A stretch of DNA of 31,300 bases. Source: a virus. The position numbers and the translations under genes are program-made. Shown piece after piece: positions 3,433 to 31,300 of the stretch (within the stretch, counting starts at the first letter, position 1; the number at the start of each line of letters is the position of its first letter). Location of the stretch: IMG/VR virus record IMGVR_UViG_3300044678_001328, positions 1 to 31,300 of that record; one strand, 5' to 3'. Below the pieces are notes generated by a model. The model did no database searches. It saw only the letters and a list, made by a program, of their open reading frames with translations, and was not told the DNA's origin.

Positions 3433-3796
3433 GGTTACGGTTCCCATCCCACCTAGTCTCAACTCTGCCTATTTCAATATAGGCAGGAGACGAGCAAAAG
3501 CAAAGTGCTATACCGATTGGGAGAAGGAAGCACATCCAGTCATCAAGGCAAGCATGGTCAAGGCTACGCAACCAGTCTTCATTGAATACTTATTCACTCT
3601 TGGAACTTCTTTTCGGGGAGATGTTTCAAATAGAATAAAATTAGTTGAAGATGCGTTGGTCAAATGTGCTATACTAGAAGATGACAACCACAAGTTTGTA
3701 AAGGGTTTTTCAGTTAATCTGGACTACGCAAAGCAAAAACATTCGACACTTACATTAACGATACATGAATTAGGTAACACTAATTCGAGTAACTGA
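3425..3796 (+). CDS. rusA: RusA-type Holliday junction resolvase (123 aa)
   Basis: RusA-family endonucleases cut four-way junctions. The protein opens with VPIPPSLNSAYFN, typical of the family. It carries the acidic metal-binding set: RGDVSNRIKLVEDALV (Asp66, Asn69, Asp76) followed by ILEDDNH (Asp86, Asp87). I chose the ATG at 3425, which overlaps the SSB stop by 8 bp and gives the usual MNKVTVPIPPS opening; an ATG at 3398 would add nine residues that do not look homologous. The gene completes the Gam/Rad52/SSB recombination block. Its expected job is to remove branches from replicating concatemers before packaging. Confidence 0.92.
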   Translation: MNKVTVPIPPSLNSAYFNIGRRRAKAKCYTDWEKEAHPVIKASMVKATQPVFIEYLFTLGTSFRGDVSNRIKLVEDALVKCAILEDDNHKFVKGFSVNLDYAKQKHSTLTLTIHELGNTNSSN

Positions 3797-27059: not shown

Positions 27060-27099
27060 ATAGAAATACGTTCCTCAAAAGAAAAAAGTACCATTCCCT

Positions 27100-27105
27100 A
27101 TTATA
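27100..27105 (-). promoter_or_regulatory. Leftward late promoter -10 box (candidate)
   Basis: Minus strand TATAAT at 27105-27100, in an AT-rich run and about 40 bases before the endolysin start. No TTGACA-like -35 box lies 16-18 bp upstream; hexamer repeats and the iteron dyad occupy that place. This suggests activator-dependent or alternative use. Confidence 0.5.
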
Positions 27106-27110
27106 TATAT

Positions 27111-27134
27111 ATTTCTGTTTCTGTTTCTGTTTAT
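27111..27134 (-). repeat. Hexamer tandem repeat, four units of A(T/G)AAA(C/T)
   Basis: Read on the minus strand from 27134: ATAAAC, AGAAAC, AGAAAC, AGAAAT. The array starts three bases after the dyad at 27138-27158. The same order, dyad then 3 nt then hexamers, recurs on the plus strand at 28413-28466. Confidence 0.85.
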
Positions 27135-27137
27135 AGG

Positions 27138-27158
27138 AGGGTAGGTATAAGCTACCCT
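27138..27158. repeat. Inverted iteron dyad, copy 1 (21 bp)
   Basis: AGGGTAG (27138-27144) is inverted against CTACCCT (27152-27158) with a 7-bp spacer GTATAAG. The right arm is also the core of the first unit of the adjacent iteron array. Copy 2 at 28413 differs only in three spacer bases. Confidence 0.85.
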
Positions 27159-27183
27159 TAAGCTACCCTTAGGCTAGCCTTAT
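27151..27183. repeat. Iteron array 1, three 11-bp units
   Basis: GCTACCCTTAA, GCTACCCTTAG and GCTAGCCTTAT follow each other with no gap. The 11-bp period is about one helical turn, so bound proteins would lie on one face. Likely binding sites for the replication initiator encoded at 30253. Confidence 0.85.
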
Positions 27184-27319
27184 GTATATAATTTGAACCT
27201 AAAACTAATCAAATATGTAATACAAAGTATATATACTTATACTAAAAAAAATTAGAAAATGAAAGTAAAAAAACAGAAACAAAACAACTAGCTATACGCT
27301 AGTCGAAACATAGCCATAG
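27184..27319. other. AT-rich stretch between iteron arrays (unwinding element candidate)
   Basis: The 136 bp between the two arrays consist almost wholly of A and T in its first 110 bp, with A-runs of 7-8 and a perfect palindrome AAGTATATATACTT at 27226-27239. Such a stretch next to iterons is the usual DNA unwinding element of phage and plasmid origins. Confidence 0.6.
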
Positions 27320-27363
27320 GCTACCCTTAGGCTACCCTCAAGCTACCCTATAGCTACCCTTAT
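27320..27363. repeat. Iteron array 2, four 11-bp units
   Basis: GCTACCCTTAG, GCTACCCTCAA, GCTACCCTATA and GCTACCCTTAT follow head to tail in the same orientation as array 1. The last three positions vary, while GCTACCCT is constant. Confidence 0.88.
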
Positions 27364-27508
27364 CTACTACCTAAAATGTACTGTATGCCAAATGTGTAGT
27401 ATAAGTGATTTTGATGGTTAAAAATTTTATGGTGTGGGTAACGCTAACCGCTCCGCTCCTTCTCCACCCCCCCCCCCTAACCTTACAATCCCATGCCAAC
27501 ACTATATA

Positions 27509-27721: not shown

Positions 27722-27751
27722 TTGACAATCTGCCAAACATAAGCGTATCAT
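27722..27751 (+). promoter_or_regulatory. Early rightward sigma-70 promoter
   Basis: TTGACA (27722-27727), an 18-bp spacer, then TATCAT (27746-27751). Expected transcription starts near 27758, about 30 bases before the first early gene at 27790. The -10 box lies in the 13-mer ATAAGCGTATCAT, which has relatives at 27657 and 28955. Confidence 0.8.
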
Positions 27752-28012: not shown

Positions 28013-28222
28013 ATGAAATACATGAACGAACATGACGCAATTGAAGCATATGAGGATATGCTTAACGACTGTTACCCTATGGCGGATATCTGCGGGTATA
28101 AGGTGCAACCTGCATACGCTCTTAAACGCTTCGATCCAACAGCCTACCGCTGTGGGTTTATTGACTGGTTGGACTCTGAGGGGCTAACTACCGATGAGAG
28201 TGAAGCGGACGAGGTGGCATAA
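28013..28222 (+). CDS. Acidic early protein, paralogue A (69 aa)
   Basis: I placed the start at the ATG at 28013 behind AAGGAAACATAAC; the frame is open to 27929, but those residues overlap the first gene. The core DAIEAYEDMLNDCYPMADIC with ALKRFDPTAYRCGFIDWLD is matched by the protein at 29011, so the two are duplicates. The L-K-x-x-D-P-T-A-Y-x-x-x-F-x-x-W-L-D motif is common in small early proteins of many phages; function is unknown. The acidic tail (TTDESEADEVA) is strongly charged and could be a DNA mimic, but that is speculation. Confidence 0.82.
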   Translation: MKYMNEHDAIEAYEDMLNDCYPMADICGYKVQPAYALKRFDPTAYRCGFIDWLDSEGLTTDESEADEVA

Positions 28223-28223
28223 G

Positions 28224-28403
28224 ATGACGCGAACATTCACGCAATCAGAAATAACCGTAGAGCGCATGATTAACGGGGGCTATAGTCTATCCGTCATCAC
28301 TGACACGGGTAACTATTACCGTATGCGTTACTATTTCTACTCACGGAAGGACGCCATGCGGCAATTCTCGCAATACGTCAGGGAACAAGAACAATCTGCA
28401 TAA
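28224..28403 (+). CDS. Hypothetical protein, 59 aa
   Basis: The ATG lies one base after the preceding stop, behind GAGGTGG within the previous gene. The product has strands (FTQSEITVERMINGGYSLSV, TDTGNYYRMRYYFYS) and a final helix RKDAMRQFSQYVREQEQ. This beta-beta-beta-alpha pattern with many Tyr and Arg suits a small nucleic-acid-binding protein, but no family is assigned. A longer start at 28194 would overlap paralogue A and adds basic residues unlike the rest. Confidence 0.75.
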   Translation: MTRTFTQSEITVERMINGGYSLSVITDTGNYYRMRYYFYSRKDAMRQFSQYVREQEQSA

Positions 28404-28412
28404 CCTAGCCTT

Positions 28413-28466
28413 AGGGTAGGTGACAGCTACCCTGACATAAACATAAACAGAAACATAAACATAAAG
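28413..28466 (+). repeat. Inverted iteron dyad copy 2 with hexamer repeats
   Basis: AGGGTAG (28413-28419) and CTACCCT (28427-28433) flank GTGACAG. After three bases follow ATAAAC, ATAAAC, AGAAAC, ATAAAC, ATAAAG (28437-28466). The design is the same as 27158-27111 but in the opposite direction. The last unit carries the AAGGA ribosome site of the gene at 28478. No T-run follows the dyad, so it is not a plain terminator. Confidence 0.88.
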
Positions 28467-29010: not shown

Positions 29011-29235
29011 ATGAACAACATCGACAGAACGGACGAACACGGATATACCTTCATCAGCGAAGATGACGCCATTGAGCGATTCAATGATATGCTAGACGAG
29101 TGTTTCCCGCTGGTGCAATTCGGTAGCCTGAGTTACTCACCATCAGAGGTACTTAAGAGGGTTGACCCAACAGCGTACCATTGTGAGTTCCTCAATTGGC
29201 TAGATTGCGAAGAATTGACCATTGACGAGGACTAA
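29011..29235 (+). CDS. Acidic early protein, paralogue B (74 aa)
   Basis: Behind AAAAGGACACAAAAGAAC. It has its own upstream promoter-like element at 28955. The core DDAIERFNDMLDECFPLVQF with VLKRVDPTAYHCEFLNWLD aligns along its whole length with the 69-aa protein at 28013, and both end in an acidic tail. It has five extra residues at the N-terminus. The pair arose by duplication within the early unit and has since diverged strongly. Function unknown; the motif is widespread among phage early genes. Confidence 0.83.
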   Translation: MNNIDRTDEHGYTFISEDDAIERFNDMLDECFPLVQFGSLSYSPSEVLKRVDPTAYHCEFLNWLDCEELTIDED

Positions 29236-30112: not shown

Positions 30113-30260
30113 GGGCGAACCCCGAAAAACAATCGGTATCAATTTGCCCGTCAGGTACTGGTTGTGGCTCAAGGTGCAGCCCGAACCTATGAGGGCATTG
30201 ATAATGAGATTGATTGAGCAAGAGATGAGAAGGATAAAGGAGATTAAAGACCGTGAGTAA
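30099..30260 (+). CDS. Ribbon-helix-helix-like small protein (53 aa)
   Basis: Supported by GGAGGA eight bases before its ATG and by overlaps at both ends. A basic start (PKPKGEPRK) is followed by TIGINLPVRYWLWL, a strand with alternating hydrophobic residues, then two helices (PEPMRALIMRLIEQEMRRIK and a Lys/Asp end). This order, strand-helix-helix in about 45 residues, is that of Arc/CopG repressors. It would bind DNA as a dimer. Its place directly before the initiator suggests control of replication genes. Fold by pattern only. Confidence 0.72.
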   Translation: MPKPKGEPRKTIGINLPVRYWLWLKVQPEPMRALIMRLIEQEMRRIKEIKDRE

Positions 30261-30906
30261 GACAACCCCGACAGGGTGGTTCAAGTTCTATCATCGGGAC
30301 TGGGTAAGTAGTTCGACCATACGCAAGATGTCAATGACCGCTCAAGGTATCTACCTCAATCTGTTGCTACTTCAATGGGAGGATGGACAAGTGCCCGACA
30401 CACTAGAAGAGGCGGGAATGATATTGAGGCTGACAAATGAGGAAATAGACGCCTTTAAGCCCTACTTCTCAAGCCTATTCCCTGACGGTCAAAACCCTAG
30501 GCTCGCACTAGAACGCTCGAAGTCCGTTGAGTACATTGAGAAGCAGAAAAGTCACGGCAAAGCTAAGGGTAGTCCAAGGGTAGCCCCCACTAAGCCAGAA
30601 GGTAGGCAGAAGGTAGCCAAATTTGAACCGCCAACCGTTGAAGAGGTAGCGGGTCATATGCTAACCAGAAGATGGCGAAACCATGAACGCAAGGCTGAAC
30701 AATTCGTAGCATGGTATGAAGGTAAGGGATGGAAGGTAGGCAAGGCATTGATGAAGGATTGGAAGTCAGCCGTCATAACTTGGGAAGGCAAGATGGCAGA
30801 TGATGACTTTCTACCTAAGCCTAAGACGAGTCACAAGCCTGGTGAACTTGTCGAAGGTATTCACTATCAGGTCTTGCCTAGTGGCGAACGGGTGGATATG
30901 CTATGA
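30253..30906 (+). CDS. Replication initiator / helicase-loader protein, DUF1376-like (217 aa)
   Basis: The N-terminal part, GWFKFYHRDWVSSSTIRKMS with AQGIYLNLLLLQWEDGQVPD, is the signature of the DUF1376 winged-helix group found in phage replication proteins. The C-terminal part ERKAEQFVAWYEGKGWKVGK with DWKSAVITW resembles the DnaT/O-like domain that contacts the helicase. Between them, residues about 95-130 form a Lys/Pro/Gly linker. The start is a GTG, overlapping the previous gene by 8 bp. The stop joins dnaB by ATGA. I infer that it binds the 11-bp iterons and loads DnaB. The linker DNA itself carries phased iteron-like cores. Confidence 0.85.
   Translation: MSKTTPTGWFKFYHRDWVSSSTIRKMSMTAQGIYLNLLLLQWEDGQVPDTLEEAGMILRLTNEEIDAFKPYFSSLFPDGQNPRLALERSKSVEYIEKQKSHGKAKGSPRVAPTKPEGRQKVAKFEPPTVEEVAGHMLTRRWRNHERKAEQFVAWYEGKGWKVGKALMKDWKSAVITWEGKMADDDFLPKPKTSHKPGELVEGIHYQVLPSGERVDML
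30565..30616. repeat. Iteron-like cores inside the initiator gene, 11-bp phased
   Basis: AAGGGTAG at 30565 and 30576, and GAAGGTAG at 30598 and 30609, all fall on one 11-bp grid (offsets 0, 11, 33, 44). They are the reverse complement of the origin iteron core CTACCCTT. The first two extended decamers (TAAGGGTAGT, CAAGGGTAGC) match the origin unit in nine of ten bases. Confidence 0.75.
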
Positions 30907-31300
30907 ATCCGCACAACCTAGACGCTGAAAGGTGTGTACTTGGGTCGTGTATCCTAAGCACGAAGGCAAGTAGTAAGGCTATCGCACTACTTAAAGCAGA
31001 CGACTTCTTTCTACCTGCTCATGGTCTGATTTTTGAAAGTATCAAGGCTACGTTATCACAAGGCAGAGAAGTAGACTTTGTAACCGTCCGCAATGGGCTA
31101 GGCTCGAAGTTAGTAGATGCTGGTGGCATTGACTACCTGATGCAAGTTGCGGAATATGTACCTTCGGCAGCGAACATAGGAACCTATTGTGAAATAGTCA
31201 AGGACAAAGCAACAAGACGCACAATCATTCAATCTGCTAAAGGCATTGTATCCCAAGCGGTAGATGATGACGTGCCAACAAGCGAGCTAGTTCTCAACTA
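30903..31300 (+). CDS. dnaB: Replicative DNA helicase, DnaB family (5' part; continues at base 1)
   Basis: The N-terminal domain of the helicase whose ATPase part lies at 1-1037. It begins NPHNLDAERCVLGSCILSTK and continues DDFFLPAHGLIFESIKATLS, the standard N-terminal DnaB helical domain that forms the hexamer collar and contacts primase and loader. The ATG overlaps the initiator stop (ATGA), so both are translated together. The last 127 bases of the window repeat bases 1-127, so the gene should be counted once when the circle is closed. Confidence 0.95.
   Translation, partial: MNPHNLDAERCVLGSCILSTKASSKAIALLKADDFFLPAHGLIFESIKATLSQGREVDFVTVRNGLGSKLVDAGGIDYLMQVAEYVPSAANIGTYCEIVKDKATRRTIIQSAKGIVSQAVDDDVPTSELVLN
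31174..31300. repeat. 127-bp terminal direct repeat, right copy
   Basis: Identical to bases 1-127. See the left copy; it most likely reflects the overlap of a circular contig. Confidence 0.95.

Follow-up and report, generated by a model that had tools for sequence, protein, structure and literature searches.

The analysed stretch of 31,300 nucleotides (positions 1 to 31,300 of IMG/VR record IMGVR_UViG_3300044678_001328, hereafter the window) carries short iteron cores inside the gene for its replication initiator and iteron arrays between genes at 27-28 kb, raising the question of what the in-gene array represents. The original prediction had offered three answers: a second, intragenic origin, an autoregulatory site, or a relic of the ancestral origin from which the intergenic arrays came. 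We consider the last of these the best explanation, namely that the origin left the gene for an intergenic site and the in-gene array is a leftover block of iterons, with a probability of roughly 0.68. Positions 1-127 of the window are identical over 127 bp to positions 31174-31300, with the DnaB gene spanning the join; this identity marks a phage about 31,173 bp long, either circular or terminally redundant.

Iterons within and outside the initiator gene

The initiator gene is followed by a DnaB-type helicase gene, which extends across the 127 bp shared by the two ends of the window. The C-terminal domain of the initiator matched phrog_15768 (E 9e-15), a likeness to replisome organisers of the PHROG 15768/DUF1376 type, and the N-terminal domain gave weak matches to DUF1376 and primosomal PHROGs, its DUF1376 (PF07120) score of 19.8 bits falling under the Pfam cut-off of 30.1. 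In the predicted structure (mean pLDDT 82), both domains are helical and the linker between them is of low confidence. Residues 9-104, compared with winged-helix initiator N-domains of the RepA/DnaD kind, gave weak fold matches (best Z about 4-5), among them Rep initiator and DnaD N-domains, whilst Foldseek returned no significant fold match for the initiator. We infer a protein of the lambda O/SPP1 gp38 type, in which the N-domain would bind the iterons and the C-domain would recruit the helicase. A DnaB query retrieved a sister genome and distant matches only, and a blastn search of annotated phages with this region gave no match.

Four cores were found exactly where they had been placed, at offsets 0, 11, 33 and 44 and all on the + strand, within codons 105-122 of the reading frame, which form the linker between the two domains:

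30253-30906, + strand: initiator (replisome-organiser-like) gene, 217 aa, with a DUF1376-like N-domain, a linker and a helical C-domain
30547-30621, + strand: linker-coding DNA without an AAACAG tract, homologous to the complete putative in-gene origins of the relatives L229/L230 and positional equivalent of that of the relative G001
30565-30572, + strand: in-gene iteron 1, core AAGGGTAG, matrix score 13.0, a perfect TAAGGGTAGCT in the sister
30576-30583, + strand: in-gene iteron 2, core AAGGGTAG, matrix score 13.6, TAAGGGTAGCC in the sister
30598-30605, + strand: weak core GAAGGTAG in the second 33-bp unit, site score 4.3
30609-30616, + strand: weak core GAAGGTAG in the second 33-bp unit, site 30608 scoring 9.3

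In a genome-wide scan of the window with a matrix made from the seven intergenic iterons, the first two in-gene sites were among the 11 best-scoring places. The GAAGGTAG sites were poor iteron copies, that at 30608 lying within background, and iteron 1 no longer has the final base of AGGGTAGC, a motif invariant in the intergenic copies. Shuffling synonymous codons across the whole initiator gene rarely yielded four phased cores (P = 0.0007), as anticipated, but a shuffle confined to the linker did so often enough (P = 0.15) to leave room for chance, because the linker's own codons already spell the cores; the case for the window array therefore rests on comparison. The related argument that an 11-bp period speaks against a simple protein repeat held in part: the 11-bp step is out of register with the codons, but the 33-bp step fits them and gives an 11-residue protein repeat, clearest in L229/L230 (KPKARSRVANS twice). 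The window array has a gap at offset 22, which corresponds to the one third of the 33-bp unit that contains no iteron.

A search beside the in-gene iterons found no A-rich hexamer tract in the linkers of the window and sister, which are about 50% GC; when linker GC is set against that of the remaining gene, the window (52% GC in the linker) ranks within roughly the highest tenth of the family. Compared with in-gene origins of the lambda/SPP1 type, the linker has the iterons (two good and two weak sites) but no A/T-rich unwinding tract.

The in-gene cores are indeed reverse-complementary to the intergenic iterons; GCTACCCT is located at 27151, 27162, 27320, 27331, 27342, 27353 and 28426. On their own strand these iterons read TAAGGGTAGCT and close variants, and are arranged as follows:

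27101-27182, - strand: intergenic module A, origin-like, reading TAAGGCTAGCC-TAAGGGTAGCT-TAAGGGTAGCT-inverted iteron-AAACAG x3.5-ATATATAT on the - strand
27108-27132, - strand: A-rich AAACAG hexamer tract within module A, a putative unwinding element
27183-27310, no strand assigned: DNA separating module A from the second array, strongly AT-rich (GC content as low as 20%)
27319-27363, - strand: second intergenic array, four phased iterons
27722-27751, + strand: promoter-like TTGACA-18-TATCAT where the early genes begin
28401-28465, + strand: intergenic module B, origin-like, an inverted iteron pair followed by AAACAT/AAACAG hexamers

Module B is a 79% inverted copy of module A, and in both modules phased iterons are followed by A-rich hexamers with the polarity seen across the family. 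The AAACAG tracts of the window and sister are intergenic only. The 27-kb arrays sit at the junction of leftward late and rightward early genes, and module B lies near a gene start.

The pattern GCTACCCTNNNGCTACCCT occurred in 15 stretches of IMG/VR, about the chance level for a 16-base pattern in a collection this large, and stretches other than the sister had no initiator domain within the stretch examined. As a separate observation, 11-bp-spaced GGGTAGC/GGTAGC arrays, mostly intergenic, were present in unrelated IMG/VR phages (L008 12133-12173; L014 8074-8270; L015 7731-8025; L011 135-160; L012 13762-13785), whose initiators were not found within the stretches examined.

Sister genome and outgroups

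The sister genome (L001, IMGVR_UViG_3300044646_000599) encodes an initiator 93% identical to that of the window, the two genes differing at 70 of 654 positions (10.7%). Within the in-gene array, none of the 32 core positions differed, as against 6/20 spacer positions (Fisher P = 0.0019), these spacer changes including three amino-acid changes; the cores also differed less than the remainder of the gene (P = 0.039). Between genes, 7/348 positions of the region 27065-27412 differed, compared with about a quarter or more in the non-coding DNA just downstream, and the iteron part of module B was identical in the two genomes. The sister linker matches the window origin array at 28/29 bases.

Synonymous sites under the cores had been expected to be conserved, and this was so in the sister, where 9/11 and 10/11 linker codons were identical (Fisher P = 0.006 and 0.0009 against 15/44 for the N-domain); it was not so in the window (5/10 and 6/10 identical linker codons; P = 0.29 and 0.16). 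A derived base moves iteron 2 of the sister nearer to the intergenic consensus, whereas most of the array changes that can be polarised occurred on the branch of the window and reduced its match to the iteron. Given the failed synonymous and linker-only chance tests, the window's in-gene array may be decaying. The sister also carries an additional iteron-only inverted module at 3570-3610, beside a small gene missing from the window, and modules therefore seem to multiply.

Two types of outgroup were available. G001 (IMGVR_UViG_3300008261_000079) is 88% identical to the window in its terminase, 66% in DnaB, 60% in the C-domain and 36% in the N-domain of the initiator. Its linker contains five 11-bp repeats of the CAACCACGGTT type, then AAACAG x7.8 and TATAAAA; both the repeats and the AAACAG tract are absent elsewhere in its 33.7 kb record, and no array is present in the part of G001 that corresponds to the 27-kb intergenic region of the window. 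L229/L230 share an N-part 49% identical to that of the window, but have a different C-domain; their records yielded no match to DnaB. Their linkers consist of TAAGGCTAGgtCAAGGGTAGCT units with a 33-bp period, then AAACAG hexamers, and both AAGGGTAGC and the hexamers are confined to the linker. The N-domain of the window initiator is closest to those of L229/L230 and G001, and the arrays of the window, sister, L229 and L230 form an ungapped DNA alignment. These key genomes are metagenomic contigs, and the putatively moved arrangement is present in two of them, the window and sister.

Linkers of the initiator family and known origins

Homologues sharing the C-domain were gathered from annotated phages, IMG/VR and bacterial genomes, their N-domains being variable, and 138 non-redundant homologues chosen by C-domain similarity were surveyed, mostly with a view of 4 kb either side. 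The linker was defined as the 150 bp before the C-domain, and repeats were scored at p<0.05 against a synonymous shuffle. Linker DNA repeats exceeded the whole-gene shuffle in 115/138 genes, compared with 5 for the N-terminal stretch and 5 for the C-domain, and with a linker-only shuffle the excess was found in 103/138 linkers (flanking stretches 4 and 4). Slippage can create functionless DNA repeats in linkers of low complexity, but by itself it does not predict the excess of inverted repeats in the linker (26, versus 1 and 2 in the flanking stretches).

The repeat sequence varies from phage to phage across the family. Where linkers had both elements, GC-bearing repeats lay 5' of an AT-rich short-period tract in 45 of 47, and this tract was A-rich on the coding strand in 45/47 linkers. 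Because the layout matches lambda and SPP1 oriL, we read the linker, by analogy, as the probable usual origin of this initiator family. Iteron arrays outside the gene left the window and sister essentially alone among 124 testable loci. Candidate outside arrays were dropped for L133, where the same gene had been seen under a wrong ORF choice, and for L026 and L159, where they were scattered partial matches. A very clean example of the origin-like in-gene layout was seen in L181, a Desulfobacterales contig (gene 1194-2042), whose linker has three exact 11-bp repeats ACCAGTACCCT, then AAACAG x4. The AAACAG of L181 and L121 was not taken as a sign of descent, being shared hexamer usage, and the N-domain of L181 is unrelated.

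The gene O of lambda, as in Stx phages, contains iterons and an AT-rich tract in mid-gene, ori-lambda (PMC7466680), so that the analogy originally drawn with an origin inside gene O is right. Relatives of the window carry the same mid-gene layout, the likeness being one of layout; unlike lambda, the window's gene has no AT-rich tract, its full module is intergenic and its iterons are 11 bp. The repeats of SPP1 gp38 lie in its own gene (oriL, gene 38) and in a distant intergenic oriR with an AT-rich unwinding element, and gp38 bound at oriR has been suggested to halt replication forks and to bring about the theta-to-sigma switch (PMC6316719). The repeats of the window initiator are likewise divided between its coding sequence and intergenic DNA far from it, but both SPP1 origins have an unwinding element, which the window's in-gene copy lacks. 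In Staphylococcus phage 80alpha the origin probably lies within the initiator gene ORF20, judging from failed trans complementation; the available part of that report mentions no second intergenic array and describes a phage with no helicase gene of its own (PMC5499656).

A proposed move of the origin and its alternatives

Taken as a sequence of events, the ancestral state would have been 11-bp-phased iterons followed by a melting A-rich hexamer tract, embedded in the DNA that codes for the linker. In the lineage of the window, a joining at the linker would have combined an L229-like N-domain and its iterons with a G001-like C-domain and its DnaB, and the melting tract was probably lost from the gene through this swap. 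A domain swap at the linker is the simplest account because the N-part is L229-like, the C-part and helicase are G001-like, and the join falls where the tract is expected. The likely active origin is the intergenic region at 27.10-27.36 kb, which has the same design and polarity, with a second module at 28.40-28.47 kb. The in-gene array is probably still an initiator-binding site, and could act as a satellite, regulatory or fork-pausing site, though it would be unable to melt DNA by itself. The direction and cause of the move are what we infer, with polarity assigned by parsimony. That the array is a relic of an ancestral origin is well supported by linker origins, as read here, in both outgroup types and most of the 138 homologues. 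To the fuller version, in which a gene-locked origin of the lambda type was broken by a linker domain swap, then rebuilt and multiplied intergenically whilst the in-gene iterons stayed initiator-binding, we would give even odds.

If true, the case provides a natural before-and-after set (L229/L230 and G001 before, the window and sister after) and shows how an origin can be uncoupled from its gene even though its sequence also encodes protein. It would also explain why initiator domains shuffle exactly at the linker, the swap point being the origin's place. The linker rule of repeats followed by an A-rich short-period tract would predict origins and iterons for many uncultured phages and prophages and, being a sequence-only rule, would allow initiator DNA-binding domains to be paired with their targets.

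A serious contender, to which we assign somewhat less than an even chance, is that selection preserves the in-gene array because it gives the initiator a second place to bind, for autoregulation, handcuffing or fork pausing. The constancy of the cores against spacers that changed even at the amino-acid level, the synonymous conservation and improved iteron 2 of the sister, and the SPP1 precedent (PMC6316719) all favour such retention, but it sits poorly with the base lost from iteron 1 of the window, with polarisable changes that mostly weaken the match on the window branch, and with a second pair of sites near background.

It is unlikely that the intergenic arrays are instead operators or partition sites and that replication begins elsewhere; their place at the late/early junction near a promoter-like site, and that of module B near a gene start, would suit such a role, but they reproduce the in-gene origin layout, iterons and then AAACAG, in the same polarity. 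A working second intragenic origin, comparable to that of lambda or SPP1 oriL, appears quite improbable: the family rule places an origin in the linker, but here the linker is GC-rich for the family and the A-rich tract is found only between genes. Least credible is a coincidence of codon usage, whereby a Lys/Gly/Arg/Val/Ala linker (AAG, GGT, AGG, GTA) spells the cores by chance, since the weak GAAGGTAG sites and the 15% of linker-only shuffles that give four phased cores are outweighed by the whole-gene shuffle, by the sister linker's 28/29 match, which is hard to explain in this way, and by the L229/L230 alignment, which indicates homologous in-gene iterons and contradicts it.

Besides the proposed move of the origin, some other features of this part of the window were recorded. 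A GC skew near 29.5 kb was set aside as origin evidence, since transcription changes direction nearby. ATAAGCGTA occurs three times in the window (27657, 27739 and 28955), the copy at 27739 lying inside the strong promoter-like TTGACA-18-TATCAT, and is a possible candidate operator of a phage regulator. A 62-bp stretch at 28021-28082 is 73% identical to 29052-29113, and the two small early ORFs that contain these stretches are probably a diverged gene duplication.
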